Part shown: piece after piece, positions 1,498 through 39,771 of the stretch
Layout of the letters: the number at the start of each line of letters is the position of its first letter
How positions within the stretch are numbered: position 1 is the first letter of the stretch
IMG/VR virus record: IMGVR_UViG_3300037485_000804
Span: 1-40,232 of that record
Direction: 5' to 3' (one strand)
Source: a virus
Length of the DNA: 40,232 nucleotides
Translations under genes and position numbers: made by a program
The notes under the pieces: generated by a model
What the model saw: the letters and a program-made list of their open reading frames with translations, nothing else
Databases searched by the model: none
Told to the model about the DNA's origin: nothing

Positions 1498-1557
1498 CAG
1501 CACCTCCAGACTCAGCAAGCCTAGAGTAATTGGACACGATGGAGTGCTGAAGAGCAA

Positions 1558-1629
1558 ACGCGCCGCATGATTGCACGGCGCGTCTGCCTCCTGTGGAGAG
1601 GAGAAAGGCCCGTTCTAGCCAGGAACGGG
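1558..1629 (-). terminator. Two stem-loops between the SEC-C gene and portal
   Basis: There are two perfect inverted repeats: an 8-bp stem (1558-1565 with 1576-1583, loop 10) and a 7-bp stem (1609-1615 with 1623-1629, loop 7). Read on the minus strand, the first is followed by GTTTGCTCTT, a weak U tract. They occupy the only gap between the small-gene operon and the portal gene, so a terminator or attenuator fits. Neither has a clean run of U, so the call is tentative. Confidence 0.4.
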
Positions 1630-1637
1630 AGAGGTGC

Positions 1638-1853
1638 TCAATGTCCGCAGCATCGCTTGCTCTTCTTGCCCGATCCGCATTCGCATGGCTCGTTGCGCCC
1701 GACCTTCGGAGCCTTCCTAGTGATGACGCCCGTACTCGGCATGAACTGATCTTCTGCGTGTTGCGCGAGGAACTTCTGCGCCCGCTTCGATGCGCCTACG
1801 CGGAGGCGTTCTAGCGCCCCTTCCTTGCGGTCGTTAGACTTCGGTCCGCTCAT
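1638..1853 (-). CDS. Small SEC-C motif metal-binding protein
   Basis: This is a 71-residue protein ending in a SEC-C zinc-binding motif: C57-x-C59 then C68-C69-G-H, context '[16 protein letters not shown]'. SEC-C motifs occur at the C-terminus of SecA and in many small proteins, where they bind zinc and mediate protein contacts. The N-terminal 50 residues are basic and unrecognised. The start at 1853 is chosen because AAGGA lies eight bases upstream; an ATG three codons earlier would sit on top of that site. It is the last gene of the small-gene operon and overlaps the preceding gene by about 20 bases. Confidence 0.75.
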
Positions 1854-2028
1854 GGTCTGCATCCTTCCGCTTCACTACGCGGGCCGTCCGCTTGATCCAA
1901 TCGACCTCAATGTCTTCGTCCGCCTCAACGTGAAGCGGAGTTGAGAAGATCATTCGATCGACCATGCTGCCTTGCCATCGTTTGTCGAACTGTCCGACCT
2001 CGATAATGGTTCCGAAGTCCTGCGTCAT
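1834..2028 (-). CDS. Hypothetical small protein
   Basis: This 64-residue protein is not recognised. The start is ATG 2028 with AAAGGA upstream. The sequence is acidic in the middle ('[10 protein letters not shown]') and basic at the end, with no cysteine pairs, signal peptide or membrane segment. It is translationally linked by overlap to genes on both sides in the 3298-1638 operon. Confidence 0.65.
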
Positions 2029-2240
2029 GTCAGATCCTTTCCCCTCCATCCGTCGCAACTGTCCTCATCTCCGACGGCGATAGCCTCGGGATGGATATTG
2101 CAAATGAAGAAGCCGAGGCCATTCGGTGAATACCATCGGTGATGCTTCTCCCACGATCGATTCGCGCACGTGTAGCAGATGCGCGGCGTGAATCCTTGCT
2201 TGATCAAGAACAGCGTGATCGCCTTCTTCATCCCGTTCAT
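2025..2240 (-). CDS. Hypothetical cysteine-rich small protein
   Basis: This 71-residue protein has C22-x2-C25, C47, H50 and C62, spaced as in a small zinc-binding fold. The C-terminal part ('FFICNIHPE' and 'DEDSCDGW') looks like a conserved phage motif, but I cannot name the family. ATG 2240 has GAGGA upstream. It overlaps neighbours by four bases at each end, so translation is probably coupled. Confidence 0.65.
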   Translation of the reverse strand: MNGMKKAITLFLIKQGFTPRICYTCANRSWEKHHRWYSPNGLGFFICNIHPEAIAVGDEDSCDGWRGKDLT

Positions 2241-2590
2241 GGCATCCTCGGCTCTACCGGATCCCAGTCACCGACCGTAGAGTAGATCGCGACGAGCACG
2301 CGGTCGCCCTCTTTGACGAACGCGGGGGACGGGATCGAGACGGTGTGCTGCGAGTCCGTGATGATCGGCCCGACGCGTCGCAGGCGGATCGTCACGAGAG
2401 GTTTGATGATAGCGTAGGTCGGATGAATCCCTATGGGCTCGCCGGCGGGCATTGCCGCGATTGCCTTCTCTAGGTTCTCAATCGTCAACGGCAGTGGTGT
2501 GGTAGACCCCGGCGCGTTGTTCTCTTCCAGCGCCCGCTCTCGTATCGTCGGCGGCTTCACTGTTGACTTCGACGGAATCCCTCTAGGCAT
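2237..2590 (-). CDS. Hypothetical protein
   Basis: This 117-residue protein is not recognised. The start is ATG 2590 with GGAGG five bases upstream. The N-terminal third is proline- and threonine-rich and looks disordered. The C-terminal part is beta-rich ('IRLRRVGPII', 'DRVLVAIYSTVGDWDPVEP'). It overlaps the next gene by four bases (ATGA). Confidence 0.65.
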   Translation of the reverse strand: MPRGIPSKSTVKPPTIRERALEENNAPGSTTPLPLTIENLEKAIAAMPAGEPIGIHPTYAIIKPLVTIRLRRVGPIITDSQHTVSIPSPAFVKEGDRVLVAIYSTVGDWDPVEPRMP

Positions 2591-2903
2591 GTTCCCTCCA
2601 CTCGCGTTCCGTGAATAGCTCCTCGTCTTCATCCTTGACGAACACCTGAACTCGCTCGGGATCATTCCACTGCGCCGTCCTGATCGCAGCAATCAAGTGG
2701 TCCCAATTCATGTAGTTGAACGCTGCGAGATAGATGTCGCACTCCATGTGCTTCTCGCCCCCGACGTACTCGCTGTCGCTTGCGGGGGTGCGCGTGAACG
2801 GAGTGTGCCCCTTCTCAAGCAGGTAAGCGTTCACTTCCTCGATGCGTTTCTGAGGGTACTCTCCGCACCCATGTGTCAGGATCACGTTCATCACTCGGCT
2901 CAC
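2583..2903 (-). CDS. Hypothetical protein
   Basis: This 106-residue protein starts at GTG 2903, with GAGGAGG four to nine bases upstream. It alternates hydrophobic strands and helices ('MNVILTHGCGEYP', 'CDIYLAAFNYMNW', 'RVQVFVKDEDEE'), like a small alpha/beta protein. The aspartate-containing second segment loosely recalls short nucleoside-processing folds, but I would not assign a function. It sits mid-operon among small genes. Confidence 0.65.
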   Translation of the reverse strand: MSRVMNVILTHGCGEYPQKRIEEVNAYLLEKGHTPFTRTPASDSEYVGGEKHMECDIYLAAFNYMNWDHLIAAIRTAQWNDPERVQVFVKDEDEELFTEREWREHA

Positions 2904-2912
2904 GTTCCCTCC

Positions 2913-3053
2913 TCACTTCGCTGCGCTTCGTAGTATCGTCACGGTGATCGCAAACGCAATCGCCAGCACGACGTAGAACAGAATCGTCTCGCTACAGGTG
3001 AACGGCGGATCGACGATGCGCGACCCGTGCTCCACCACGAACTCGGGGATCAT
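2913..3053 (-). CDS. Small single-pass membrane protein
   Basis: This is a 46-residue ORF read directly from the minus strand. It starts at ATG 3053, whose ATGA overlaps the upstream gene's stop, and ends at TGA 2913. Residues 1-20 are polar. Residues 22-41 ('ETILFYVVLAIAFAITVTIL') form one strong membrane helix followed by a short basic tail. Translation is probably coupled, since there is no good independent ribosome site. It fills what would otherwise be a gap in a compact operon. Its function is unknown. Confidence 0.6.
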   Translation of the reverse strand: MIPEFVVEHGSRIVDPPFTCSETILFYVVLAIAFAITVTILRSAAK

Positions 3054-3298
3054 CGTACCCAGACCCCCGTCGCACGCTGAATCGCAATCACGCGCCGCGC
3101 AGCCTTCGTGTCCCGCTTCGGCGTCCGCATCGTCGAGAGGTCCACCGTGACGCGACGCTTGCCGCCGAGTGCGCGATCGGTTGGGCCGTCGTGATCGAAC
3201 GTGACCGCCTTCAGCACGATCGCATCGACGTTGCGGTGTAGGTCAACGGCAGCCGCTTCGAGGCTCTTATACTTGTAGCCTTGCGGTTTGTGGCCCAT
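3050..3298 (-). CDS. Hypothetical basic protein
   Basis: This 82-residue basic protein is unrecognised. The start is ATG 3298 with AAGGAG upstream, rather than a start 84 bases earlier with no ribosome site that would run through the stem-loop at 3316-3364. It has many Arg and Lys residues in its C-terminal half ('RTPKRDTKAARRVIAI'), which would suit nucleic-acid contact. Its stop overlaps the start of the small membrane protein. Confidence 0.65.
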   Translation of the reverse strand: MGHKPQGYKYKSLEAAAVDLHRNVDAIVLKAVTFDHDGPTDRALGGKRRVTVDLSTMRTPKRDTKAARRVIAIQRATGVWVR

Positions 3299-3315
3299 CA
3301 GTCTCCTTGTTTCCG

Positions 3316-3364
3316 TGGTGGCGGGGGTTGCATCGGGGTCAGCCGTCCAACTCCCCCGCCACCA
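3316..3364 (-). other. Strong intergenic stem-loop (12-bp stem)
   Basis: A perfect 12-bp GC-rich inverted repeat (3316-3327 with 3353-3364, 25-base loop) lies between the ribbon-helix-helix gene and the next gene. On the minus-strand transcript it ends about 16 bases before the ATG at 3298. No U run follows, so it is more likely an RNA-stability or translational element than a classical terminator. Confidence 0.6.
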
Positions 3365-3416
3365 TTTGAGCGGAGGTGACATCGGGCCGCCTTGGCGTAC
3401 CGTCCTCCGCTCTTGC

Positions 3417-3584
3417 TCACTTCTTCTCAGCCCTCGCCACGTACTCCGACAGGGCCTGCACGACGAGGTAGCTCACCGAGCGATCCTGCGCCTTGCAGAT
3501 CTTCACGAGTCTCTCGACGATCCCCTCGCCCTGCTTCGCCTTCGGGATGTAGACTGATAGCTTTGTCGTGTCCGTCTGCTGCAT
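3417..3584 (-). CDS. Ribbon-helix-helix DNA-binding protein
   Basis: This 55-residue protein has the Arc/MetJ-type layout: a short beta strand ('KLSVYIP', residues 8-14) followed by two helices ('GIVERLVKICKAQD' and 'VSYLVVQALSEYVARA'). Such proteins dimerise, insert a beta ribbon into the major groove and usually act as repressors. ATG 3584 has AGGAGG nine bases upstream. It is the first gene behind a strong promoter at 3735-3707, whose spacer holds three tandem GAGTA repeats, a plausible operator, so autoregulation is likely. It is the only classical transcription factor visible in the genome. Confidence 0.8.
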   Translation of the reverse strand: MQQTDTTKLSVYIPKAKQGEGIVERLVKICKAQDRSVSYLVVQALSEYVARAEKK

Positions 3585-5045: not shown

Positions 5046-5388
5046 CCTTGCCAGTCACCTCGACGGCTGCTTGGTCTTTCCATCCGTAGTTGTTCTTGAG
5101 GACGAAGATGTGCCCTGGTCCCCATCCGTCACCGCGCAGCATCCGTTCCGCTGTTGCAGCCTCTATTCTAGCCTTGGCTTTCTTTATAGGATCAGAAAAC
5201 TCAGTCCTGTCCTGATATTCCAGCAGGCCCTCTATGGTCAAGTCGAGGTGCAGGCAGAGTCCTAGAACGGTCCACGGCTGGAGGACGGTGGCGAAGTAGG
5301 AGTCGATTCGCGTCTCCATCTGCGCGACGGACGTGAACTTGCGCGGGCGGCCTCCGGCGTGCTTCGGCTTGTCGATGTTCGTTGTCAC
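4996..5388 (-). CDS. terS: Terminase small subunit / DNA-packaging protein
   Basis: The small subunit recognises phage DNA and feeds it to TerL. It has 130 residues. The basic N-terminus ('GGRPRKF') and helical body, with a conserved tail 'AERMLRGDGWGPGHIFVLK' then 'NNYGWKD', resemble the GP3-type packaging proteins found just upstream of this terminase class. GTG 5388 is chosen because AAGGTGA lies four bases upstream; the longer frame adds nine residues without a site. The gene follows the MazG-like gene with a four-base overlap and precedes terL. Confidence 0.85.
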   Translation of the reverse strand: MTTNIDKPKHAGGRPRKFTSVAQMETRIDSYFATVLQPWTVLGLCLHLDLTIEGLLEYQDRTEFSDPIKKAKARIEAATAERMLRGDGWGPGHIFVLKNNYGWKDQAAVEVTGKDGGPITVHFDAEDAKL

Positions 5389-5627
5389 GGTTTCACCTTG
5401 CTGGAAGTATAGCACTCCCGATAGGCGGCGACAGCCATCGCAGCGACTTGGATCAGCTCGTCGCGCCCGTCTTCGTCACGGCGCACCTTCTCCCAGAACT
5501 CGTCGAGTTCTTCGAGGATCACGGCGTAGGCTTCGTGCTGGCTGTGGAAGGCGGGAAACTTGGCGCGAGCGCGTTCGATCTCGTCTTCGATGGCGACTCC
5601 GATCTCCTTCAGGGTTCGTGGTTGCAT
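5385..5627 (-). CDS. MazG-like protein
   Basis: This is an 80-residue all-helical protein. The motif 'ILEELDEFWEKVRRDEDGRD' followed by 'ELIQVAAMAVAAY' resembles the EExxE...ExxD metal site of MazG-like nucleotide pyrophosphohydrolases, but the last acidic position appears as Gln/Ala, so catalytic activity is doubtful. MazG proteins remove non-canonical or signalling nucleotides, and phage versions are common. ATG 5627 overlaps the methyltransferase stop (TGATG), with GAGGAG upstream. Confidence 0.65.
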   Translation of the reverse strand: MQPRTLKEIGVAIEDEIERARAKFPAFHSQHEAYAVILEELDEFWEKVRRDEDGRDELIQVAAMAVAAYRECYTSSKVKP

Positions 5628-6628
5628 CACGACTCCTCTTCGTCTGCGTCCGTGTCGTGCTCTTCTTGTGGAGCGAACAGCAACGGATCGTCCTGCGGAG
5701 CGTCCGACATTGCAGCGGAGACGTTCTTCATCGCCTGGTTGAAGTAGGTCGGTTTGAGTTCGATACCGATACCCTTGCGTCCGGCTTTCACCGCACCGTA
5801 GACCTCGGACCCTACTCCCATGAACGGAGTCAAGATCTTCTCGCCAGGATTCGACCAGAGGACGATGCAACGGTCGATCACGTCGAGTTGCAACGGGTGG
5901 ACGTGCTTCTCGTCTTCGGCGTCACGTGCCGCCTTGTATGGCAACACGCGCGACACACGCACGTCGTCCCAGAAAGCCGAGGCGTACTGCCTCCAGATCC
6001 AATGCGAGTACCGATTCTGGATCTGGTTTCCTGTCCATCCCTTGAACTTCGACAGCTCGCCGGGGATCTCACGCTCGCCGGCATAATCGAGGAGGCCCAC
6101 CGGATGCGTGATCGGAGTCTTGTTCTCCCCATCACGCCGGAAGATGAGGAGGTAGTCGGCAGAGGCACACGAACAGCGCGACGAGTCTTCGACGATTCCT
6201 CGGTGCGCTAGGTTCTTTGCCATCGTCCGATTGCGCACGGCGAGCGGTTCCTTCCAGATGTGGTATCGGCAGACGTACTGCCAACCGAGACGACGATGCA
6301 GGCGGATGATGTCTCCAGGGAAGTCGGTCAGCGCGTCGCATCCCGTGTTCCCTGTTGGCACGTCGGCGCAGTGGACGGCCGTGATCCGTCCCGGCATGGT
6401 CACGCGGGCGAGTTCCTGGACAACGAACTCGTAGTGTGCGAAGAACTCGTCGTAGTCCTTGCAGTTCGACAAGTCTCGCTCGCTGGATGAGTAGTGGTAT
6501 AGACCCGCGAACGGCGGCGAGTAGATTGACAGGTGAATCGACGCCTCCGGCAACGTCGGCATGACCTCCATGCAGTCCCCACAGTAGATCGCGTACCGAT
6601 CGGTGATCACTTGATCTTTCACAGCCAC
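5627..6628 (-). CDS. DNA (adenine-N6 or cytosine-N4) methyltransferase
   Basis: This 333-residue enzyme has the beta-class motif order. The catalytic motif IV 'SPPF' (residues 37-40) comes first, and the S-adenosylmethionine pocket comes late as 'FMGVGSEVYGA' followed by 'GIGIEL'. SPPF/SPPY is typical of N4-cytosine enzymes, but N6-adenine cannot be excluded. It has an acidic C-terminal tail. GTG 6628 overlaps the helicase stop by ten bases. No matching restriction nuclease lies nearby, so it probably protects phage DNA from host restriction or marks its own DNA. Confidence 0.9.
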   Translation of the reverse strand: MAVKDQVITDRYAIYCGDCMEVMPTLPEASIHLSIYSPPFAGLYHYSSSERDLSNCKDYDEFFAHYEFVVQELARVTMPGRITAVHCADVPTGNTGCDALTDFPGDIIRLHRRLGWQYVCRYHIWKEPLAVRNRTMAKNLAHRGIVEDSSRCSCASADYLLIFRRDGENKTPITHPVGLLDYAGEREIPGELSKFKGWTGNQIQNRYSHWIWRQYASAFWDDVRVSRVLPYKAARDAEDEKHVHPLQLDVIDRCIVLWSNPGEKILTPFMGVGSEVYGAVKAGRKGIGIELKPTYFNQAMKNVSAAMSDAPQDDPLLFAPQEEHDTDADEEES

Positions 6629-12992: not shown

Positions 12993-14146
12993 CACGCCTC
13001 CTTGCTCTGATCTGCGAATGGGTTCTCGTCGCTCGGCACCGGCAGATCCGCCTTGACCGCCGCGACCTTCGCGTACACGTCGCTCGCATCGTCCTTGAGA
13101 AGCGGAAGCGAACCGCGCAGCACCGCGAGGCCGCGCTCCAGTTCCGGCAGCTTCGACTCGCTGACCTTCGTCCACGAGCGGGTCTCGAAGATCGCATGAA
13201 CGAGGTCAGTCTTCGTCGTCTTCGAGTCCTTGTCCTGGCCGGGATAAGCGCGCTTCAACTCCTCCTCGATCTCCTCCAAGCAGATCGTTCGCGCCTTCTC
13301 GATCCTCTGCATAGCCTCCGAGTTCGACGAGAAGAGCGGTGCGCTCGTCTTCGTGTCCACCCCAAGGTGCTTGCCGCCGAGGTTCAACGCCTGGAAGTGC
13401 GGCTCGAACGTCGCGTAGTCGGGGAAGTCGAACTCCATGCCGTTCAGCACGTCGGCGCGATCCTTGATCACGGTCGCCCGGATGATGCGATCCGACGAGA
13501 TGCGGATGCCGGAGCGTTCCTTCTTGTTCTTCGCCTCACGGAGTGCGTCTTGGCTCGCCGTCATCGACTCCATCTGGAGAACGAGCGACGGCTCGTAGCC
13601 GAACTCCTTCTCGGCTCGCATCCGCGTGCCCGTCTTCGTGATCTCCCGGCGTCCCTGATCGTCGAAGAAGTCCTCGTACTCATCCTGCGAACGCCCGCAG
13701 ACGATGATGTGCGCGTGCGCGTTCACGAACGGCGTGGCGTATCCCTTCCTCCACTCGTCCTTGATCACGGCCCAGTCCTCGAACTGGAGCCGCGTCCGCT
13801 TCATCTTCTCTGCGAATGCCGTCCGAATCTCGTCCCAAAAGTGCGACACCGAGTCGATCACGAGGACCGCTCCAGCGGCCTCCGCTTCCTCGATAGCCGG
13901 GGCAAGCGTTCGGAATGCCCTCGTCTTCAACTGGAGGAACGGAACGCCCTCCTGCTTCATCCTGGCGACGAAGAAGTCCGAGCCGGTCTCCGTGTCAACG
14001 AAGGCGATCGGTGCCGTCTTCTCGGTCAACCGTGCCAGCCCCACCGCAATCTTCATTGCCGTGGTTGTCTTCCCGCTTCCCTGCGGCCCGTAGAGCCCCA
14101 CCTTACCGAACGCCAGCAGGTTCTCCGCTTCCTGGAATAGCTTCAC
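12992..14146 (-). CDS. RecA-like AAA ATPase (Sak4-type)
   Basis: This 384-residue P-loop protein has Walker A 'GPQGSGKTT' (20-28) and Walker B 'AVLVIDSV' (93-100), with an early sensor region 'FVDTETGSD'. The architecture matches phage AAA_24/Sak4-type single-strand annealing ATPases, which act in replication-coupled recombination. The C-terminal 120 residues are charged and helical and end in 'ENPFADQ', which recalls the acidic tips that SSB-like proteins use for contacts. GTG 14146 has GGAGG upstream. It lies in the early region with the primase. Confidence 0.85.
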   Translation of the reverse strand: MKLFQEAENLLAFGKVGLYGPQGSGKTTTAMKIAVGLARLTEKTAPIAFVDTETGSDFFVARMKQEGVPFLQLKTRAFRTLAPAIEEAEAAGAVLVIDSVSHFWDEIRTAFAEKMKRTRLQFEDWAVIKDEWRKGYATPFVNAHAHIIVCGRSQDEYEDFFDDQGRREITKTGTRMRAEKEFGYEPSLVLQMESMTASQDALREAKNKKERSGIRISSDRIIRATVIKDRADVLNGMEFDFPDYATFEPHFQALNLGGKHLGVDTKTSAPLFSSNSEAMQRIEKARTICLEEIEEELKRAYPGQDKDSKTTKTDLVHAIFETRSWTKVSESKLPELERGLAVLRGSLPLLKDDASDVYAKVAAVKADLPVPSDENPFADQSKEA

Positions 14147-16311: not shown

Positions 16312-16995
16312 CTAGCAGATTGCTTTTTGTACCATGATCGCTTGCAAGTAAGGCCCGCTCGTCTGACCCCACTGGTTCATGGGCGTCACTTCGATCGTGA
16401 CCGCGATCTGTCCGACCGCCGGCTGAGTCGGAGCGGTTCCTCCGCTCGATTGCTGCGGAGGGTTGCACGCCTTCGACGTCGCCAACGACGGCACGAACAC
16501 GACCGTCTGCGCTTTGTAGGGCACGAACACGTCGCATCCGATCGACGCTCCGATGGCCGAGTACGGGCGCTTGCCGCACAGGTAGACGTCGAAGACTCCG
16601 CTCGGGACGAAGACGCCGTCGCACTGCGGGAGTCCGTCGTGCCCGTAGACCGGCATCTCTTCCTTGGTATCGTCACGCCACGACCGCACCATCACGCCGT
16701 AGGGTCCGGTGAGGTTGTCGTCCATGCCGTAGTGAACCGTCTCCCCCAGACATCCGGCCTCTTGTGGCGTTGTCTGGAAGATCAGGCGCTCGCCCTCGTC
16801 ATAGACTGGCTTGAGCGAGAGGAAGCCGTGATAGCTCGGAGCTGGCTTCGGCTTCGGCGCCACGACTCCACCATCCGGCAACGGGATACCACCGGAAGGC
16901 TTCGCGCCCCGCCGATACATCACGTACCCGCCGACGAGCACGACGAGGACGATCACCGCCCCGATCGTAGACCAGAAACTCTGAACGTCAGCCAT
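16312..16995 (-). CDS. Membrane-anchored protein of the lysis-like cluster
   Basis: This 227-residue protein has an N-terminal membrane helix (about residues 9-26, 'TIGAVIVLVVLVGGYVMY'), a basic stop (RRGAK) and a Pro/Gly linker, then a beta-rich exported domain with about six cysteines that could form disulfides. It is the last gene of the late operon, after two other membrane proteins, where lysis genes usually lie. It is not a recognisable endolysin or spanin. It could instead be a virion or surface-exposed host-envelope protein. Confidence 0.65.
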   Translation of the reverse strand: MADVQSFWSTIGAVIVLVVLVGGYVMYRRGAKPSGGIPLPDGGVVAPKPKPAPSYHGFLSLKPVYDEGERLIFQTTPQEAGCLGETVHYGMDDNLTGPYGVMVRSWRDDTKEEMPVYGHDGLPQCDGVFVPSGVFDVYLCGKRPYSAIGASIGCDVFVPYKAQTVVFVPSLATSKACNPPQQSSGGTAPTQPAVGQIAVTIEVTPMNQWGQTSGPYLQAIMVQKAIC

Positions 16996-16998
16996 GAG

Positions 16999-17367
16999 TT
17001 ATCGTCCCTTCTTGGCGAGCTTCGTCACAACTGGCGCAGCCGTCCGCGCCCGAACCGTCGCGGTAGACGTGACACTCGGCGTCTCAACCATTCCGCCTAG
17101 CGACAGATCGAACTTCGCGGCCAGCTCCTTGTAGATGACCTGAGCCGTTGCGAAGACTGCCGAGCCTCCGGTGAAGATGACCCACGGCGTAGACAGCAGC
17201 ACCGCCCATCCGGTCGTCAGCCCCGTCACGAGCACGCCGAGACCGAGCGAGACAAGGACCGCAGCCCACATCATCGCACGCCCTTCGAGCTTGAACAGCG
17301 CCTTGATGCTCTGCAACACGAACGTCGCCAGACCACCCGCTACGAGATACAGCACATCGCCTAGCAT
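16999..17367 (-). CDS. Putative holin (three membrane helices)
   Basis: This 122-residue protein has three hydrophobic segments (about 4-22, 31-50 and 54-75) and a basic, Thr/Ala-rich C-terminal tail ending 'KLAKKGR'. This matches the size and layout of class I holins, which permeabilise the inner membrane at the end of infection. ATG 17367 has AGGAGG upstream. It sits between two other membrane proteins after the tail genes. Holin families share little sequence, so the call rests on topology and position. Confidence 0.6.
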   Translation of the reverse strand: MLGDVLYLVAGGLATFVLQSIKALFKLEGRAMMWAAVLVSLGLGVLVTGLTTGWAVLLSTPWVIFTGGSAVFATAQVIYKELAAKFDLSLGGMVETPSVTSTATVRARTAAPVVTKLAKKGR

Positions 17368-26482: not shown

Positions 26483-29112
26483 ACGGCCTCCAGTCCTAGC
26501 CGGACCTTCTCACGCTGCACAAGCGGCAGGGCGATACGCCCGAACGTCTTGCCGTCTACCTGGAGGATCATCGGCCTATCCGCGCCCATGCCCAGTTCGG
26601 ACATCGCATCGTAGACGCCAGCCTGCACCGCCTCGGCAAACGCGCCGTAGTCCATCGCCTGAGCGAAGCCCTTCGCTCCGATGGGCTCGCCGCCATGCAC
26701 GACGGCCAGTTGAGGCTCGCCCATCGCACCAGAGACGATGCCGCCGGAGGCGTAGCCCTTGACGCCCGTCGTCGTGTGGACAAGCCCGCCACCGTACTGC
26801 TGCCCGAGTAGGTTCTCGGTGATCCACTTGTTGAGGTTGGCCGTGAAGTTTGCCGCGCCCTGCGACGTTCCCAGCCACAGCGGGAGCAGCCATCCGAAGG
26901 CGCTGACGAGTCCGCTTAGAGACAGCTGCATCGCGGCGACTCCACCCTGCACGGAAGCCGAGGCCGCACCCATCGCGCTAGTGATCCCTGGGACGAACTT
27001 CCCGAAGAGAACATCCGTGACGAGTTGCGCCGCCTTCTCTAGTCCCGTCTTGAGAAGATCGTTCCACATCTTATCCCAGACTCCGCGCACGTCGTCGCCG
27101 TGAGTAACCCAAGCGTAGAGGCTATCCCCGAGCGCGGAGGTCAACCCAGACTGCGCCTCGTTCTGCATCGTCTCAAGCGAGTCGAGTACCCCCTGCGCGA
27201 GGAGATTGGTAGCGGAGATAACGCCGGGCGTCCCTTCCGTGATCCCCACGCCCAAGCCGGCAGCAACGTCGCGCCCGATCTCCGCTGTCTTCTTCGACGG
27301 TGACTGTGACTCGAAGGTTAGTCCCAGAGTGTCAATCACGGAGTCTCCCATGAAGGTGACATCATCGAGAAGACTGGGCATCCCTTGACCGAGACCGAAT
27401 GACAACCCTTCCGTGAGGCTGACGCCAAGAGCAGATCCAGCATCGGCAACGGTTGTCTCACCTTGTCCTATGGCGTCAACCATCGCTGCCACAGCAGCGT
27501 CACCAGCATCTGTAGCGGCCCCCGTGATCGTCGCCTCGGATGCCGCCAGTCCGTCGGCGTACTGTTGCGCCGAGTCCTCTCCAATGCCAAGCCACTTCTT
27601 GAGGAAGCCCGGCATCCACGAGGTGAGCGCATTGATGAGCGAGTCCCAGGCGCTCGCAAAGAACTCCGTCACGCGATGCCACGCGCCTTGGATGCCTTGC
27701 CAGATCGCATCGACGAGGCCCTGCCCCCACGCGAGGAACTTGTCCCACAGGCCAGCGAAGAACGTCTCAACCGCTGCGAACGCTCCCGAGAAGATGTTCA
27801 CGACGGGATCCCAGAAAGCATGGAAGATCACGTTGAGTGCATCGAAGAGGCCAGTGAAGAATCCCTTGAGCCCATCCCATGCCCCGGCCCAGTCTCCTCG
27901 GAGGAAGGCCAGCACGCCACCAAGAAGCGAGAGGATGGACTTAACGACGGGACCAACGATGGAAAGCACTACCTGAATCGACGTCCCCACAATCTCGAAG
28001 AACGCCTTGATGTCGTCCGCGTGGTCCGCGAGCCACTGGATGACCGGCTGCAACGCCTCCATGATCTTGCCGCCGAGGTCGATCTTGAGGTTATCCAGCG
28101 TAGTCTTCATCCGAAGCATACGCTGTTCGGTGGACTCAGCCATGTTGTCATAGGAATCAGCAACGATCCCTGTACTAGCCGCCATCTTGTCGAGGTTGTT
28201 CGTGAGGAGTGCCGCCTGATCTCCTGTCGTGAGCATGACCATCTTCGCGGCTTCGATGTTCGTAAAGAGATCTGTGAGCGGTGTTCCCGTCTCTTCTGCG
28301 TTGGTCGCGATCATTCCGAGCGCCTCGGCCAACGTACCGCCGCTGGCGATGAAGTCTCTGACCGTTGTCCCACTCAACTCTTGGAACAGCGCGGCGATCT
28401 TAGTTGTCGGATCGGACAATTCATCCATCGCCGACTGGATACCAGAGATCGCCGTCCTGGTAGGAACTCCTTGCTGTGCGATGGTGGTGATGTACGCGCC
28501 AAGCTCGTTGAAACTGATTCCCATGTCCTGAGCGACCGGAAGCAACTTTGCGAACGTCGTCTGTAGTGTCCCGATGTCCGTGTCTCCCGCCTCGGCTACG
28601 CTGAAGAAGAGGTCGGCAACGCGACTGGTCTCAGTGAAGTCTCCCCCGAGGCCCTGAATCGTCTTGGCGAGGGCACTACTAGCCGTTCCGAGATCGACCT
28701 TCAATAGCCTGGACAGCTCTGATGCAGTACCAAGGAACTCTTGGATGTTCTCTTCAGGGACACCGATGTCTCCAACAACGTCCCAGGCCACGGCAATGTC
28801 CTTCGCGGCGATGCCGTACTGGTTGGACACCTCCATGATGTCCGCAACCATCCTATCTTTCTGCTCGGCGGTGAGGCCCATGTCTGCGAAGACTCGATCG
28901 ACGGTGCCCTCGAACTCGACGAACGCCTGCGTGGAATCCTTCAGGAAGTCGAAGACGACCTTGGCTGCGAATGCGGCGACGAGGGCGGTTCCAATCTTGG
29001 CGATTGTCTGCTGCAATCCGCCCATCTTCTGGCCGGCAGCATCGACGCCAGAGTTGAGTCCGGCCATGTCCGCCGTGATCCCGATGCCTAGAGTTCCGAG
29101 TAGCGTTGCCAT
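26479..29112 (-). CDS. Tape measure protein
   Basis: This 877-residue protein sets tail length and is ejected into the host. The N-terminus ('GIGITADMAGLNSGV', 'KIGTALVAAFAAKVVFDFLK') and the adjoining region ('LFFSVAEAGDTDIGTLQTTF', 'TRTAISGIQSAMDEL') are typical of TP901-type tape measures. The centre has hydrophobic helices ('VVLSIVGPVVKSILSLLGGV', 'LFDALNVIFHAFWDPV'). The C-terminal part ('MPGFLKKWLGIGEDSAQQYA', 'LTFESQSPSKKTAEIGRDV') is the standard conserved end. It follows the frameshifted chaperone genes, as expected. Confidence 0.95.
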   Translation of the reverse strand: MATLLGTLGIGITADMAGLNSGVDAAGQKMGGLQQTIAKIGTALVAAFAAKVVFDFLKDSTQAFVEFEGTVDRVFADMGLTAEQKDRMVADIMEVSNQYGIAAKDIAVAWDVVGDIGVPEENIQEFLGTASELSRLLKVDLGTASSALAKTIQGLGGDFTETSRVADLFFSVAEAGDTDIGTLQTTFAKLLPVAQDMGISFNELGAYITTIAQQGVPTRTAISGIQSAMDELSDPTTKIAALFQELSGTTVRDFIASGGTLAEALGMIATNAEETGTPLTDLFTNIEAAKMVMLTTGDQAALLTNNLDKMAASTGIVADSYDNMAESTEQRMLRMKTTLDNLKIDLGGKIMEALQPVIQWLADHADDIKAFFEIVGTSIQVVLSIVGPVVKSILSLLGGVLAFLRGDWAGAWDGLKGFFTGLFDALNVIFHAFWDPVVNIFSGAFAAVETFFAGLWDKFLAWGQGLVDAIWQGIQGAWHRVTEFFASAWDSLINALTSWMPGFLKKWLGIGEDSAQQYADGLAASEATITGAATDAGDAAVAAMVDAIGQGETTVADAGSALGVSLTEGLSFGLGQGMPSLLDDVTFMGDSVIDTLGLTFESQSPSKKTAEIGRDVAAGLGVGITEGTPGVISATNLLAQGVLDSLETMQNEAQSGLTSALGDSLYAWVTHGDDVRGVWDKMWNDLLKTGLEKAAQLVTDVLFGKFVPGITSAMGAASASVQGGVAAMQLSLSGLVSAFGWLLPLWLGTSQGAANFTANLNKWITENLLGQQYGGGLVHTTTGVKGYASGGIVSGAMGEPQLAVVHGGEPIGAKGFAQAMDYGAFAEAVQAGVYDAMSELGMGADRPMILQVDGKTFGRIALPLVQREKVRLGLEAV

Positions 29113-29440: not shown

Positions 29441-29790
29441 TTTCCCTCCTTCGTTGCCTCCTCGGTGACGCGCTTCTTGAGCGGTTCGAGCGTGAAGTCG
29501 ATGAACGCCATGAGCTGATTGAGGTCGGCGTGATCGAGCAGCCAATCCACCGTGATCTCCGTGTCGTGAACCTGCGCGATGCGGGCCACGATGGAGATGG
29601 ACTTCACGAGCCGTTCCTCTCCGCTGTACTTCTCCATCTCGTCAGCGAACTTGGCGGCTTCCAAGAGGACGCGGGCGGGGATCGTCGTCACGTCAATCAC
29701 CCGCCCGCCAAGTCGTGCCTGACGCTGCGCCGGGACCAGCTTATCGAAGTCTCGGATCACCGGCCCGATGTCTAGCTTCTTCGCTTCCAC
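29419..29790 (-). CDS. Tail assembly chaperone (gpG-like)
   Basis: This 123-residue helical protein is encoded between the tail tube and tape measure. Such proteins coat the tape measure before tube assembly. GTG 29790 has GGAGGA upstream. The slippery heptamer overlaps residues 115-117, near the C-terminus, so most ribosomes make this short form and a fraction make the fusion. The C-terminal tail is disordered ('KEGNAPAAGS'). Confidence 0.85.
   Translation of the reverse strand: MEAKKLDIGPVIRDFDKLVPAQRQARLGGRVIDVTTIPARVLLEAAKFADEMEKYSGEERLVKSISIVARIAQVHDTEITVDWLLDHADLNQLMAFIDFTLEPLKKRVTEEATKEGNAPAAGS
29440..29446 (-). promoter_or_regulatory. -1 ribosomal frameshift site GGGAAAC
   Basis: The heptamer G GGA AAC is in the correct phase for the upstream chaperone frame. 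Both tRNAs can slip to GGG AAA, after which the -1 frame is open for 109 codons. Lambda uses GGGAAAG at the same place in its tail genes. It lies 21 bases before the 0-frame stop region. Confidence 0.85.
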
Positions 29791-29807
29791 GCTTCCTCCT
29801 TAGTCCC

Positions 29808-30848
29808 CTACGTCGTGTGCTGCGAGTCGGTGATAACAAAGAGCTGCTCGCCAGCGGTGAGCGTCGTGTCACACTTGCCGATCATCTTGATGGGACACAG
29901 CGCAGGATCTCCCGCGTCATCTGCCGGGAAGTTGATCGTGATGCCTCCGTCCGGTGTAGCGGAGAAGATGTCGAGAACGAGCGTCAACCCGGCGTCGTTC
30001 GTGTTCGTGAACCGGCAGTAGCGAGCGGTGAAGGTGGTCAACCCGCCGCCCTTGAGGGTCTTGCTGGTGCTCGGCGTGTAGCTGTAGTCGGTGAGCGTGG
30101 TGTCGCCCGAAGCGATTCCGCCGCGCGTGATCGTGAACGATCCCAGATCGCCAGGAACTTCTGCCGTGCAGGTCTCGTTGACCGTGATCGAGTTCGTCCC
30201 GGTGATTGCCGTGATCGTCTTCACTCCGTTGTTTCCGACCTTGTTCGCGCCGGAGACGATGATGTGGTCTCCGATGGCAAGCGCAGCGAACGTCCCGGCT
30301 GCTGTGACGTAGGTCTTCGCCGGAGTAGCGACCGTGATGTCGGCCAACGCCGTGCAGATCGCCGCAGGATACGCGCGGGAGATCGTCGTCTGACCGGCAG
30401 CGTTGAGTCCGATCGCGTAGTCGCAGTCACGCACGAGCGTCACGGTACCCGCTGCGTTCGTCACGACGATGGACCCGACTTCCGTACCTGCCCCCATCGG
30501 GTGCGTCAGCGCCGTCTCGGTCGTGCCCGTCAGGATGTGAACCTCATCGGTGATGGCAACCGGAGCTCCGGCTACCGCCGCTGCCGTCAGGACGCCAGCG
30601 TAGAAGCTGCCGAGGTTCGTGAAGTTGACTTCCATGAGATCGGCGGAGAACGCAGCCTGCTCGTTCGCTGCCGACTCGCGGATCACGCCAGCGTTGTCAG
30701 ACTTCGTTGTGATCTTGTCGAACGTGTACTCGAACACGCCATTGCGAATCGCCCCGACGTTCACGAGTGCGCCCGCGTTGGCCCCCATCTCGAACTTGGC
30801 CGAACCGAACCGGATGGTCTCGGCATGTTGCGTAGTGGTTTGCGCCAT
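29808..30848 (-). CDS. Major tail tube protein
   Basis: This 346-residue protein begins 'AETIRFGSAKFEMGA', reads through beta-rich segments ('KITTKSDNAGVIRE', 'GLTTFTARYC') and closes 'LTAGEQLFVITDSQHTT', as in siphovirus tail tubes. The centre (about 120-260) is Thr/Ala/Val-rich and Ig-like, probably a surface-exposed insertion. It lies between the tail terminator and the chaperone genes. ATG 30848 has AAGGAGA upstream. Confidence 0.85.
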   Translation of the reverse strand: MAQTTTQHAETIRFGSAKFEMGANAGALVNVGAIRNGVFEYTFDKITTKSDNAGVIRESAANEQAAFSADLMEVNFTNLGSFYAGVLTAAAVAGAPVAITDEVHILTGTTETALTHPMGAGTEVGSIVVTNAAGTVTLVRDCDYAIGLNAAGQTTISRAYPAAICTALADITVATPAKTYVTAAGTFAALAIGDHIIVSGANKVGNNGVKTITAITGTNSITVNETCTAEVPGDLGSFTITRGGIASGDTTLTDYSYTPSTSKTLKGGGLTTFTARYCRFTNTNDAGLTLVLDIFSATPDGGITINFPADDAGDPALCPIKMIGKCDTTLTAGEQLFVITDSQHTT

Positions 30849-30857
30849 GTCTTCTCC

Positions 30858-31238
30858 TTATGTTTCCTGGTAGGTCAACTTGAAGTCAACGGGCACGGTG
30901 AAGCGCCCGGTCTCGGGATCTCGTAGGTCGAGATCGTTCACCTCGCTGCAATAGACCACCCGCAACCCTGCGGAGGTTCCCTTCTTCTTTCCTGCCGCGT
31001 TCGTGAGGGCCGTTGCGACTGCCCGCGCCTCGGTTGCCGTTGCCGCCCAACACGTCACCTGGATGCGCACGGTGGCGAATTGGATCTCGTCGTGCCGGTA
31101 GCGGCTAACCCTGGCGTAAGTGCAAGCGGGTAGGACTGGCGTCTGCGGCAACAGCATCGGATAGAACCGCACGCCGATCAATCCGGCAAGCGTCGGGTCC
31201 GCAATCGCCCAGGCTCGCAACGCGCTCTCAGGTTCCAT
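30858..31238 (-). CDS. Tail terminator / completion protein
   Basis: This 126-residue protein begins 'EPESALRAWAIADPTLAGLI' and later reads 'RIQVTCWAATATEARAVATA', the pattern of gpU/DUF3168-like tail terminators that cap the tube at the head-proximal end. Its start shares a base with the previous stop (TAATG). Its position before the tube gene is typical. Confidence 0.75.
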   Translation of the reverse strand: MEPESALRAWAIADPTLAGLIGVRFYPMLLPQTPVLPACTYARVSRYRHDEIQFATVRIQVTCWAATATEARAVATALTNAAGKKKGTSAGLRVVYCSEVNDLDLRDPETGRFTVPVDFKLTYQET

Positions 31239-33845: not shown

Positions 33846-34973
33846 CTAGGTGTGAACCTGAGCATAGGTAGCGCGCGGATCGAGCGCCGTTCCGCCTCCG
33901 ACCACGCGAACTCTGTAGAACACGTTATCCGACGCGAAGTCCCCATCAAACGGGGAGATCAGCGAGCCAGTCGGCGAGACCTTGTCGGAAGACTTCATGC
34001 AGATCTCCGGTGCCTCGTGTCCGCGCAGCCGTGCCCACTCTGCGGCCCAGCACTGCGTCGTGTCGGCGAACAGGTACCACGTGCCGTTGCGGTTGCCCGA
34101 CGTATCGACAATCGGGAGCCACGGGTTCACGATGAGCTGAAGGCCCATCTGCGGCAGCACGTTCGTCGCGGGGATCGGAGCCGCTGCGGTACTGAGGATC
34201 AGCGTGCTCGTCAGGATGGCCCGTGCACGAAGCTCCAGGCTGGGCGGTACGACGAGGTACTTGCCACGCAGACCAAGCGGATCGCCGTTCGGTCCCGCCT
34301 GCGCTGCCAAGAGGCCGAGCGTCGTTTCGAGGTTCGCAATCGTGAGATCGAGTACCCCGACGTTCGTGCAGGTGGAGCCATCCGGCAACGTGATCGGTGC
34401 GGCGTACATCGTGGCAATCGGCCCCGTGGTCGTGGTGGTGAGGCCCGTCATGCCCTGCGCCTCGGTGTTGATCGCGGCATCAGCGTACCGCTGCGCGATG
34501 TCCGAGAACGCTCCGAGGCCATCGTTGATCAGGGCCTCCCACGAGATGTCGAACTGCGCGCCGCGCTTCGAGACCTGAATCGACGTCCGATTCTGCGTCG
34601 GCTTCGTCGAGACGAGGTACTCGCCCTTCTCAGACACGGGCGGCAGCAACCCCGTCAGGCCGTCGAGACGGTCACGGGTATGCGCGTTGAAGTTCGGCAC
34701 GGTCGTCTGCTTGATGTACATCGACATGTCGATCTTCGAGAATCTGTAGCGGGCAACGAGTTCGCGTTCGATCGTCGCGCCGAACAGGAGAGGAAAGTCA
34801 GAGGTGGTGATGGCTTCCTTCATCAGGTACTCGTGGCGGTGCGCCGGGAGGTGATCAGCGTTGCGGATCATGTCGAGACAGCCCGCAATCTGAGCCTCGC
34901 TGAATCGCTGACTCGGGACGGGTGCGAAGCCGAGCTTCGTCTCGTCCATGACTTCGGTGAATGTGTTTCCCAT
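33846..34973 (-). CDS. Major capsid protein
   Basis: This 375-residue protein is in the right place and size for an HK97-fold capsid, with features of the Mu gpT-like group: 'FPLLFGATIERELVARYRFS', 'QVSKRGAQFDISWEALINDG' (the P-domain-like helix), 'KYLVVPPSLELRARAIL' and 'VLPQMGLQLIVNPWLP'. ATG 34973 is chosen because AAGGAG lies five bases upstream within the preceding gene's last codons; a GTG two codons earlier is too close. A protease and scaffold lie upstream. Confidence 0.93.
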   Translation of the reverse strand: MGNTFTEVMDETKLGFAPVPSQRFSEAQIAGCLDMIRNADHLPAHRHEYLMKEAITTSDFPLLFGATIERELVARYRFSKIDMSMYIKQTTVPNFNAHTRDRLDGLTGLLPPVSEKGEYLVSTKPTQNRTSIQVSKRGAQFDISWEALINDGLGAFSDIAQRYADAAINTEAQGMTGLTTTTTGPIATMYAAPITLPDGSTCTNVGVLDLTIANLETTLGLLAAQAGPNGDPLGLRGKYLVVPPSLELRARAILTSTLILSTAAAPIPATNVLPQMGLQLIVNPWLPIVDTSGNRNGTWYLFADTTQCWAAEWARLRGHEAPEICMKSSDKVSPTGSLISPFDGDFASDNVFYRVRVVGGGTALDPRATYAQVHT

Positions 34974-34975
34974 GT

Positions 34976-35167
34976 TCACTCCTTCTTGTCAGGGTCCGCT
35001 TCCTGGGCGGACGGGATTGCCTGCGCCGTCTCCTCTTGTGCGAGGACGGCAAGCAGATTGTCCAGGGCCTCGATAGCGCCACTGAACGCACTAGCCTGGG
35101 AAAGGGCTTTCTCCTTCCCCCTCACATACGTCTCTCGCTGGGCCTCAAGGATCGGGCGCGTCAGCAT
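34976..35167 (-). CDS. Small coiled-coil protein upstream of capsid
   Basis: This 63-residue helical protein ('ILEAQRETYVRGKEKALSQA', 'AIEALDNLLAVLAQEET') starts at ATG 35167 with GGGAGGG upstream. Its last codons form the ribosome site of the capsid gene. Small coiled-coil proteins of this kind often precede major capsid genes, but their role is not known to me. Confidence 0.65.
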   Translation of the reverse strand: MLTRPILEAQRETYVRGKEKALSQASAFSGAIEALDNLLAVLAQEETAQAIPSAQEADPDKKE

Positions 35168-35176
35168 CAGCCCTCC

Positions 35177-36205
35177 CTAGGTGCTGTAGAGTTGCAGGTA
35201 GTGGATGACTCCGGCCACGTTCACGGCAATCGTTCCGCTCGGCGTGTTCAACGTATCGGAAGCGACACCGCCGCAGACCGTGAAGGCGTCGAGTTCGAGC
35301 AGCGCCTCAAGGGTTCCAGCCGTGCCGGAACTGTTGACGTGGATCGCGGAGCGCCGCGCAGGAGTTGCCCCCGGCACGCCCTCCATCATGATGTCCAGCC
35401 CGCGGGCGAATGGAGCGATGCCGCCGCTCTTGTTGTCCGCGTCGAGCTTGAGGGCCGTCATCGAGGACACCGTTGCGTCCGTCGCTTCGTCGCGCACAAC
35501 CTTGAACTCCGCTCCCGTGATCTCTCCACCCGTGGCGACGAGGTTATCGACGATCCGCACGTTCAGACCGTGGATCTGCTCGCCAGCCAGAAGGACCGTC
35601 GCCGGAGCGAGACACGCTTCGAGCATTCGGTTCTTCCGCAGGGCGCTGTCGCCTTCGAGCAGCATGTTCCCCGTGGTCGCTCCCGACGTGTAGCCGGAAC
35701 CGAAGTGGAGATGGTAGTTCACCGGAATCGGGCTGTTGTGGACCTTGACCGCAGCGAGCGTCGGTGTCGTGACGTGCGCCGAGACGGTGCCCAACAGGTA
35801 CCCGAACGGCCGGAACGCCGAGTAGTCGCTCTGCCCGGAGAGGATCGCCGTCGATGTTCCCGGAGTCACCTTGATCGAAACCGGATCGCCCGCGCCAAGC
35901 GCCAGCGCAATCCCGTCCGTCGTGCCATCCGAGACGCATCCGAGCACGTTGAGGAACCAGATCCCTTCCGTGTCGATCGTGATGATGTCCGTGGCGGCTG
36001 CGGCGCTGTTCATCGCAACGCCCGCAATCCCGGAGGATACCGCCCCGTCCGAGACGAGTACCGGATCGCCCTTGTCAACGAAGCCGTCTGCGGCGTGGTA
36101 CGGGTGGATTAGCATCGACTCTTCGATGGAGATGTAGCGTCCCTCGTTGGTCGAGCTGCACTCGTCTCCCGCCGTCTTCCCTGTTGCTACGAATCTTGCA
36201 GGCAT
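35177..36205 (-). CDS. Capsid decoration protein (DUF2190-like) with C-terminal extension
   Basis: This 342-residue protein has N-terminal residues about 30-125 ('GDPVLVSDGAVSSGIAGVAM', 'TDIITIDTEGIWFLNV') that match the small capsid-cement family DUF2190. The remaining about 200 residues ('VNYHLHFGSGYTSGATTGNM', 'TALKLDADNKSGG', 'ALLELDAFTVCGG') are beta-rich and may form a surface knob. ATG 36205 has AAGGAGG upstream. It lies between scaffold and capsid. Confidence 0.8.
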   Translation of the reverse strand: MPARFVATGKTAGDECSSTNEGRYISIEESMLIHPYHAADGFVDKGDPVLVSDGAVSSGIAGVAMNSAAAATDIITIDTEGIWFLNVLGCVSDGTTDGIALALGAGDPVSIKVTPGTSTAILSGQSDYSAFRPFGYLLGTVSAHVTTPTLAAVKVHNSPIPVNYHLHFGSGYTSGATTGNMLLEGDSALRKNRMLEACLAPATVLLAGEQIHGLNVRIVDNLVATGGEITGAEFKVVRDEATDATVSSMTALKLDADNKSGGIAPFARGLDIMMEGVPGATPARRSAIHVNSSGTAGTLEALLELDAFTVCGGVASDTLNTPSGTIAVNVAGVIHYLQLYST

Positions 36206-37986: not shown

Positions 37987-39771
37987 CTATGATTCAGCCA
38001 CTTGGTAGAGTCCACTGCAACGGCAGTTATGTGTTATAATCCCCTCGGCGCAGTAGTAGCCGTCCCGAGTCTGGAGGTTATAGACATGCCCATGCCACGG
38101 AATGAGATCGACACTGACAACCTGATCCGCGAATACCTGTCCGGCAAGACTCAGGTAGAGCTGGCGTCCATCTTCGGCGTCAGCCAAGGAACCGTCTGTA
38201 GTCGTCTGAATGCAGCCGGGATCCGCGGGCGTAGGAACAAACGCGCGGGATGGATATACCCCGATCGCATTGTCGTTCCCATTGAATCTATCATCCATCG
38301 CTACACATCCGGCGAGCAGATTGCCACGCTTGCCGCCGAACTTGGTGTCAGCCGCACTGTTGTGACCAGCCGTCTCGTTGAGGAAGGAATCCCCATTCGT
38401 GGCCGCACTGAGACGAACCGCATCCTGATGGCGCGCCGGACGCCGGAAGAGAACCGCCGCAATACCGAGTCGGCCCATGCCGCTGTACGCGGGCGTAAGG
38501 TGTCTCTTGAAGAGCGATCCAAGATTGCAAAGACGAGAGAGCAGATTCCGTCCAACGTCGGACGATGGGAGGGCGCTCTCGCTGAGATGTTGTCCACTCA
38601 GGGTGTAGCTACTGTCCCGCAGAAGGCCATCGGCCCATACAACTGCGACCTCGCTGCCTACCCCGTCGCCGTGGAAGTCTTCGGCGGCAACTTCCACTTC
38701 TTCGGACGGCACTTCGCACGTCTTCCCAAACGCACTCACTATCTCCTCAATGGTGGATGGAGCGTCTTCATGGTGGTCGTGCGTCGGGACTGCCCAATAA
38801 CCGAGGAGACTGCAAGCAACCTCGCTACCCACATCAAGGACATGCGCCGGTACCCATCCTACCCGCGTGAGTATTGGGTGGTTCTCGGTACAGGAGAGTG
38901 TCTTGCCGGAGGCAGTGCGGATGACGACGAGGCGGCCATCGAACATACGCTTTGTCGCGCCCGCGATGCTGTCCAGCGTCACCCGCATCGTCCCCGGTAG
39001 GCATCTCGGATGCCCAGGCGGGAACGGATCTCCGCTCTGGAAGTTCTCGCCAGTCGGAATCCACCCCTGAGCCTCGTTCGGGCCGCAGATCTCTTCGCAC
39101 GCATCGCCGCCGACCGTTGACCATGACTTCTCCATCGTGATGCCCGCCGCTTCGATGTCCTTGACGAGATCGTAGGAACCGTTCTCGTAGGCCATCGCGT
39201 TCTCGTTGACGGCGATCACCTGCGCCCGATCGACTGAGAAGATGCCCGCGCCGCGAATCTCTCGGGCGACTGATCCGTAGTCCTTGCCCGTCTTCAGTCC
39301 ATTCGTCACGATGTCACGGATGCCGGTGCGCGTTGCATCGCTGATCTGCGTCACGCGCGCCCCGACGTTCTTCTCTGCCCAGGCGATCGCTCGCGGGCTT
39401 CCCATCGTGAACGAGGTCTCAACGCCCATCGTCCTTGCGAGATCCTGGTATCCGAACAGCTTCGCCTCACGCAACGCTCGGGCGATGATCATCGAACTCT
39501 CCGCGCGGGTAGCCGTGAAGACCTCCGCTTCGATCTCATCGAGGACGGGATCGTAGGCGGCTTCCTTGACTTCCGTTGTGAGGAAGTGACTCGCCAGCTT
39601 CGTGAACCCCTTGAGGTAGAGATCACGTTGCCGGCGCAGGAGCGCGGTCACGTCGCGTTCTAGGCGCTTGATCGCGGCCTCGCGGCGTGCCTTTGCCTGC
39701 GCCTTCGTCATCTTGGTTGCCTCGCGGAAGACGGCAAGCGCGGAGTTACGAAGCGGAGACGTAGACGCCAC
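37987..39771 (-). CDS. MuF-type minor head protein interrupted by an intein
   Basis: This is a 594-residue precursor. Residues 1-256 and 583-594 form a MuF/SPP1 gp7-like minor head protein, which sits at the portal and helps DNA ejection. The extein has the family features 'AQVIAVNENAMAYENGSYD', 'KSWSTVGGDACEEICGPNE' and the terminal 'GDPFPPGHPRC' motif. That motif is split after Arg256 by a 326-residue intein (C257 to N582). Splicing restores His-Pro-Arg-Cys-Arg-Cys-Ser-Gly and a 268-residue mature protein. The start is GTG 39771 with GAGGTGA upstream. It overlaps the small gene before it by 26 bases. The opposite strand of the intein encodes an endonuclease. Confidence 0.93.
   Translation of the reverse strand: MASTSPLRNSALAVFREATKMTKAQAKARREAAIKRLERDVTALLRRQRDLYLKGFTKLASHFLTTEVKEAAYDPVLDEIEAEVFTATRAESSMIIARALREAKLFGYQDLARTMGVETSFTMGSPRAIAWAEKNVGARVTQISDATRTGIRDIVTNGLKTGKDYGSVAREIRGAGIFSVDRAQVIAVNENAMAYENGSYDLVKDIEAAGITMEKSWSTVGGDACEEICGPNEAQGWIPTGENFQSGDPFPPGHPRCLPGTMRVTLDSIAGATKRMFDGRLVVIRTASGKTLSCTENHPILTRVGWVPAHVLDVGSEVACSLLGYWAVPTHDHHEDAPSTIEEIVSAFGKTCEVPSEEVEVAAEDFHGDGVGSEVAVVWADGLLRDSSYTLSGQHLSESALPSSDVGRNLLSRLCNLGSLFKRHLTPAYSGMGRLGIAAVLFRRPARHQDAVRLSAATNGDSFLNETAGHNSAADTKFGGKRGNLLAGCVAMDDRFNGNDNAIGVYPSRAFVPTPADPGCIQTTTDGSLADAEDGRQLYLSLAGQVFADQVVSVDLIPWHGHVYNLQTRDGYYCAEGIITHNCRCSGLYQVAES
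38032..38040 (+). promoter_or_regulatory. Extended -10 promoter for the antisense endonuclease
   Basis: TGTTATAAT is a perfect extended -10 element (TGn followed by TATAAT), 46 bases before the endonuclease ATG. No good -35 box is visible, which extended -10 promoters do not require. The same bases encode the intein's last block (Ile-Ile-Thr-His) on the opposite strand. Confidence 0.65.
38086..39000 (+). CDS. Homing endonuclease (HTH repeats plus Vsr-like nuclease) antisense to the intein
   Basis: This 304-residue protein is the only plus-strand gene called. Two helix-turn-helix units lie at about 10-40 ('TQVELASIFGVSQGTVCSRL') and 66-96 ('IATLAAELGVSRTVVTSRL'). The nuclease core has W161-E162, 'NCDLA' (D188), 'VAVEVFGGNFHFFGRH' (E197, H204, H209) and 'KRTHYLLNGGWSVFMVVV'. 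These match the Vsr-like PD-(D/E)XK fold used by some homing endonucleases. ATG 38086 has GGAGG eight bases upstream; an open frame extends 28 codons further back but without a site. It ends with TAG inside intein codon 2. Its codons align exactly with the intein's codons on the opposite strand. Confidence 0.85.
   Translation: MPMPRNEIDTDNLIREYLSGKTQVELASIFGVSQGTVCSRLNAAGIRGRRNKRAGWIYPDRIVVPIESIIHRYTSGEQIATLAAELGVSRTVVTSRLVEEGIPIRGRTETNRILMARRTPEENRRNTESAHAAVRGRKVSLEERSKIAKTREQIPSNVGRWEGALAEMLSTQGVATVPQKAIGPYNCDLAAYPVAVEVFGGNFHFFGRHFARLPKRTHYLLNGGWSVFMVVVRRDCPITEETASNLATHIKDMRRYPSYPREYWVVLGTGECLAGGSADDDEAAIEHTLCRARDAVQRHPHRPR

Follow-up and report, generated by a model that had tools for sequence, protein, structure and literature searches.

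A probable homing intein in a phage MuF-like head gene, with a predicted endonuclease gene lying antisense to it in exact codon register

Canonical inteins carry their nuclease as an in-frame fusion (PMC3943268). The phage element analysed here resembles canonical homing inteins of the PI-SceI type in its Hint blocks, its precise insertion into a conserved gene, its predicted homing nuclease and the existence of empty alleles, but the nuclease is a separate antisense gene with a putative promoter, ribosome site, start and stop of its own. Because a search for an in-frame nuclease found none, we class the element as a variant of the homing intein rather than a canonical one. The ShiLan element (PMC11855218), an HNH endonuclease concealed out of frame within a phage methylase, likewise has its homing nuclease encoded in an alternative frame while the insertion stays open in the host frame, but this is on the same strand, with an HNH enzyme and with no detectable splicing element or ribosome site. 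Antisense homing-endonuclease genes are also known from the nuclear group I introns I-DsqI and Dir.S956-2 (PMC9548176); these too lie antisense to a self-splicing element and are thought to be expressed from their own promoter, but there the element is an RNA intron, the gene sits in a peripheral segment and no two-strand protein coding is involved (PMC9548176).

With I-Bth0305I and the EDxHD/Vsr-like homing endonucleases, the protein predicted here shares the catalytic domain, judged by profile and fold matches to structure 3r3p, and the use of separate DNA-binding modules; 3r3p was deposited as a mobile intron protein, whereas our gene lies antisense in an intein and its DNA-binding part consists of two HTH units. 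Inteins split in two, with a nuclease gene standing free in between, were reportedly described as 'fractured genes' by Dassa in 2009. These have a related nuclease type and likewise keep the nuclease apart from the splicing protein, but the host gene is reportedly in two halves there, while here a continuous intein fully overlaps the nuclease gene. A preprint by Gosselin et al. (2025) reportedly deals, to go by its title, with non-canonical inteins of actinobacteriophages, and its survey group is said to include Gordonia relatives of our element; the 'Non-canonical inteins' of Gorbalenya (1998) is likewise said, by title, to concern unusual intein architectures. Our literature search found no published intein with an in-register antisense nuclease, though these last two works may overlap with ours and priority is uncertain.

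The locus lies near the end of the window, by which we mean the whole stretch of viral DNA analysed (40,232 nucleotides, IMG/VR record IMGVR_UViG_3300037485_000804), and comprises the following features.

37987-39771, minus strand: MuF-like head morphogenesis gene, 594 aa precursor (Phage_Mu_F 1.7e-5; PHROG head families)
38026-39003, minus strand: class-1-type intein of 326 aa, C1 to N326 with Cys as the next residue, inserted in HPR/CRC of MuF (the slash marks the insertion point here and below)
38809-39003, minus strand: N-terminal splicing region of the intein, blocks A and B, about residues 1-65; the minus-strand protein is better conserved here
38140-38808, minus strand: intein linker, disordered over much of its length in the model; its substitution pattern favours the plus strand
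38026-38139, minus strand: C-terminal splicing region of the intein, blocks F and G, about residues 289-326
38086-39000, plus strand: predicted gene for an antisense homing endonuclease of 304 aa, running from ATG to TAG inside the intein and in exact codon register with it
38113-38214, plus strand: first HTH unit, residues 10-43 (Pfam, AlphaFold model)
38281-38382, plus strand: second HTH unit, residues 66-99 (Pfam, AlphaFold model)
38563-38916, plus strand: EDxHD/Vsr-like nuclease domain of the PD-(D/E)XK superfamily, residues 160-277 (profiles, AlphaFold, Foldseek)
38032-38040, plus strand: putative extended -10 promoter element TGTTATAAT, complement of the block G codons Ile-Ile-Thr
38073-38077, plus strand: putative Shine-Dalgarno sequence GGAGG, complement of the block F codons Asn-Leu-Gln

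A first-pass annotation, made from the letters of the sequence, had proposed an intein with blocks A, B, F and G at this place in MuF, and its coordinates and blocks proved exact: A is CLPGT, B TENHPIL, F GHVYNLQ and G GIITHN/C, with the Cys of the C-extein as the +1 residue. The intein occupies MuF residues 257-582, from C1 (TGC, 39003-39001) to N326 (AAC, 38028-38026). A close relative, L002, is intein-less and 89% identical over MuF 1-257; its empty site reads PPGHPR/CRCAGLYQVSES, and the MuF end reads PPGHPRCRCAGLYQVSES before the stop. C1, T39, H42 and N326 are invariant across 38 inteins. Profile matches to the precursor include Pfam Intein_splicing (E=1.3e-5, under the curated cut-off), weak matches of TIGR01445 and TIGR01443 to the intein, and PHROG 15127, a head protein family that covers N-extein, intein and C-extein together (5e-41). 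In the AlphaFold model the splicing halves have pLDDT >90 and residues 125-287 are unstructured with pLDDT <50; the top Foldseek matches of the model were all inteins, which points to a Hint fold. Searches of the sense-frame linker with Pfam, TIGR and PHROG profiles gave no match to a nuclease family, and the linker peptide, which need only stay open, probably exists as a side effect of coding for the nuclease.

The same annotation had placed a 304-codon gene on the opposite strand, in exact register and wholly within the intein, and this arrangement is borne out by coordinate phase (38002-37987=15). The start codon of this gene, ATG at 38086, lies opposite CAT, the His codon of block F, and its TAG stop (38998-39000) complements CTA, the Leu2 codon of the intein, as had been noticed from the letters. 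Both expression signals that had been claimed for it, a ribosome site of its own and an extended -10 in the block G codons, could be located at the positions listed above. To set an expectation for promoter elements, the synonymous codons of the minus strand were resampled in 152 block F-G regions of related loci. TATAAT occurs in 56 of the 152 regions (9.2 expected) and the extended -10 TGNTATAAT in 21 (1.1 expected), with 17 of these 21 exactly 45 nt from the ATG; only some one in three loci have promoter-like boxes. Shine-Dalgarno counts from loci that were themselves found by a Shine-Dalgarno pattern are biased, so they were repeated on 92 loci found by nuclease peptides only: 61 have the sequence where 17.2 would be expected, and in 70 the His position of block F holds a start codon (ATG, GTG or TTG). 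Start codon, Shine-Dalgarno sequence and extended -10 are thus placed in blocks F and G far above the synonymous-codon expectation.

The plus-strand protein of the window matches nuclease families weakly, and we identified it through a profile of its family and a structure model. Single-protein searches with it found no match in viral contigs or the PDB, while Pfam recognised its HTH domains and, weakly, a Vsr-like nuclease (PF18741, E about 0.1). Among 18 family members, REase_MTES_1575 matched 12 (best 5e-7) and DUF559 matched three, and the family profile matched two PDB entries, 3hrl (3.2e-5) and 3r3p, the catalytic domain of the homing endonuclease I-Bth0305I (4.7e-5). In the AlphaFold model of the window protein (mean pLDDT 89.8), two HTH units and linker helices accompany a nuclease core of helices and strands, and Foldseek again placed 3r3p first (probability 1.00, TM 0.63 on the target, with a modest E of 0.016). 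Conserved residues in the nuclease domain are E162, Y185, N186, D188, E197 and R216; for pattern searches the closer sub-alignments A3 and A4 were used, since the diverse alignment (A1) varied too much. Of these residues, E162, D188, E197 and R216 are candidates for the EDxHD catalytic set. Family profile and model together support a homing endonuclease of the EDxHD/Vsr-like type with two HTH units, which agrees with the two HTH units and Vsr-like core of the first-pass annotation; a lack of any nuclease-profile match, which that annotation had named as counting against its own reading, is not what we found, since the family matches both nuclease profiles and solved nucleases.

Relatives of the gene are widespread. 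A tblastn search with the plus-strand protein detected relatives in 147 phage records (E <= 1e-3), most of them lying antisense to head genes, in phages of Salmonella, Gordonia, Pseudomonas, Vibrio, Idiomarina, Aggregatibacter and other hosts; matches in Bacillus phages covered the HTH part only. A nuclease HMM built from 21 of these tblastn relatives located the gene in 241 fetched loci, and the two-strand layout is common to >170 distinct relatives in other phages. The MuF profile matches the extein in 141 of the 152 non-redundant loci with resolved junctions, and in these loci insertion is mostly at H-x-N/C-R-C codons. Exceptions include two other MuF sites (in L018 and L005), a gene in L015 that resembles a dCMP deaminase and a small gene in L261. 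The L018 member (1623-3560, minus strand), from Escherichia phage fEg-Eco06, sits at TSTT/CRARDG, and since its nuclease groups with those of L206 and L209, a shift in nuclease specificity is suggested. Virus Rctr197k (L015:616-1968, minus strand) has the same two-strand intein in a gene annotated as head morphogenesis, though by our reading of its sequence, and with no profile match, the extein reads like a dCMP deaminase. L261 may hold a family member in a small non-MuF protein, at the junction GDDPYE/CAAYSG. Other GenBank records call the MuF gene an NAD+--asparagine ADP-ribosyltransferase, and GenBank names of the host gene are unreliable, L015 being one example. In Salmonella phage vB_StyS-sam (L028:2021-2598), GenBank places small open reading frames inside the intein, one of them on the plus strand within the antisense nuclease.

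Signs of mobility come from relatives. Salmonella phages W5_chr3 and TS6 have a 272-aa intein in common that differs at 6 of 816 nt (99.3% identical). The 69 nt upstream of it are identical in the two phages, identity farther out is 88%, and on the downstream side differences begin again after 11 nt; within the 69-nt flank, all 11 differences between W5 and the intein-free Shemara agree with TS6. The intein-free MuF genes of Shemara, VSiP and St162 are 816 nt shorter, which is the length of the W5 272-aa intein, and no other recognisable nuclease was detected in the intein of W5_chr3 and TS6. This flank has the co-conversion pattern of homing and points to a recent transfer, in these relatives rather than in the lineage of the window.

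The same evidence bears on whether the plus-strand protein, with the layout just as described, might do something other than homing, either as a domesticated regulator of MuF or as a nuclease directed against co-infecting phages. Two HTH units and antisense transcription could well regulate MuF, and we saw no broken nuclease copies, though our searches favour intact ones. We nevertheless consider such a role unlikely, given that the putative active-site residues are near-invariant, that intein transfer with flanking co-conversion appears recent and close relatives are intein-free, and that one insertion motif dominates over very diverse phages. Nuclease divergence also correlates less with that of MuF than with that of the intein: the coefficients are 0.40 and 0.56 for the splicing regions against 0.30 for the MuF N-extein, with part of the 0.56 arising because the N-splicing region physically overlaps the nuclease gene.

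The intein frame is kept open opposite the nuclease almost throughout the family. The in-register antisense frame is free of stops over the nuclease in 240 of the 241 loci, where all other frames contain stops, and the 173 non-redundant intein-borne copies have 0 antisense stops where about 1389 would be expected from base composition. The routinely broken antisense frame that the first-pass annotation had held to count against its reading is thus not what homologues have. In 22 low-GC loci, TTA, CTA and TCA occur 0, 0 and 0 times in the nuclease and 117, 56 and 81 times in the N-extein of the same genes. Comparison of homologous sequences, and not the window by itself, confirms that the two-strand coding exceeds chance.

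These counts leave little room for a real nuclease opposite a sense frame that goes unused, with MuF simply interrupted or the intein present as split halves and the openness of the linker incidental. Split inteins with free-standing nuclease genes between their halves have reportedly been described, but a continuous in-register frame in 240 of 241 loci, with none of the roughly 1389 expected stops, makes this very improbable, as does the N-terminal splicing region, which 168 of 174 non-redundant loci carry on that one unbroken frame. The sole exception among the 241 loci argues in the same direction. In Acinetobacter phage BUCT629 (L024) the nuclease gene is free-standing (1830-2723, plus strand) and convergent, with a few bases of overlap, with an intein-free MuF gene (2717-3430, minus strand) that holds the insertion motif CKC. 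This nuclease has 12 antisense stop codons (TTA, CTA or TCA) against 13.5 expected. Because it nests among intein-borne copies in the tree (support 0.77, on a long branch), it seems to have lost the antisense-frame constraint after escaping from an intein. The contig of L225, which also carries a two-strand MuF intein, has a different intein in a terminase-like gene (1-1753, plus strand) whose in-register antisense frame contains several stops, a useful control.

Within the nuclease region, substitutions between 29 pairs of relatives fall at plus-strand codon positions 1, 2 and 3 at rates of 0.245, 0.141 and 0.350. In the linker it is the third plus-strand position that changes most, and identity is 0.719 on the plus strand against 0.554 on the minus strand. 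In the N-splicing zone the order is reversed, with minus-strand identity at 0.746 and plus-strand identity at 0.702, and the first plus-strand position changes more than the third. The pattern indicates that selection preserves the nuclease across the linker, whereas in blocks A and B it preserves the splicing protein.

The window itself has 61% GC, and opposite its minus-strand open reading frames there are eight other plus-strand ones of 250 aa or more, seven of them in register (27463-28566, 13196-14140, 34961-36112, 29715-30926, 33852-35180, 16327-17100 and 5333-6211). These seven are probably GC-driven shadows, and they caution against taking any single antisense open reading frame as a gene. 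Because eight ordinary genes here carry such long antisense frames, the open frame in the window alone is weak evidence; the layout drawn by the first-pass annotation stands, but the open frame in this one sequence adds little to it. The annotation's remark that it knew of no described antisense arrangement is to be set beside the antisense nuclease genes of nuclear group I introns (PMC9548176). That the plus-strand frame is itself only a chance shadow of a GC-rich gene, over an ordinary intein with an unrecognised linker, is most improbable of all and is rejected, since those eight neighbours in its favour are outweighed by the match of the family to solved nucleases and the confident fold of the window protein in the model, the better conservation of the plus strand in the linker within a zone-wise substitution pattern, the conserved Shine-Dalgarno and -10 signals, and the occurrence of the element in AT-rich phages, in which such a frame could not stay open by chance.

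We therefore hold with high confidence, short of certainty, that the locus is a homing intein, mobile by means of a nuclease encoded in a separate, independently expressed gene on the opposite strand in exact register, with splicing, expression and cleavage as predicted steps. The sense strand would be translated within MuF and the intein, which has the residues needed, would excise itself. Antisense transcription would begin from the extended -10 hidden in block G, and the nuclease would be translated from the Shine-Dalgarno sequence and ATG hidden in block F; both sets of signals are conserved. The two-HTH EDxHD/Vsr-like nuclease may then cut the intein-free MuF genes of co-infecting phages at the HPN/CRC codons, and repair of the cut gene would copy the intein with some flanking DNA, consistent with the co-conversion pattern in the Salmonella phages. 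Each strand would constrain the other: the intein linker stays open because the nuclease avoids TTA, CTA and TCA codons, and the linker peptide would have little sequence constraint of its own. A nuclease made independently of the late head gene and its promoter could act early in infection, which we suggest as the likely gain from this arrangement.

It seems probable, though with appreciable doubt, that these loci represent a widespread and undescribed class of homing inteins in tailed phages, in which a whole nuclease gene lies antisense in register and the splicing motifs double as expression signals, freeing the nuclease from the late head gene. They offer a clear natural example of two full-length proteins encoded antisense to each other in register and maintained in many divergent phages. 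The nuclease copy that stands outside an intein and has lost the constraint serves as an internal control, and the loci also provide a quantitative test bed for the evolution of overlapping genes. The family may supply site-specific nucleases of a new group, aimed at a conserved head gene. An intein that houses its nuclease as a gene with its own expression would change how phage head genes are annotated and, possibly, when homing takes place during infection.
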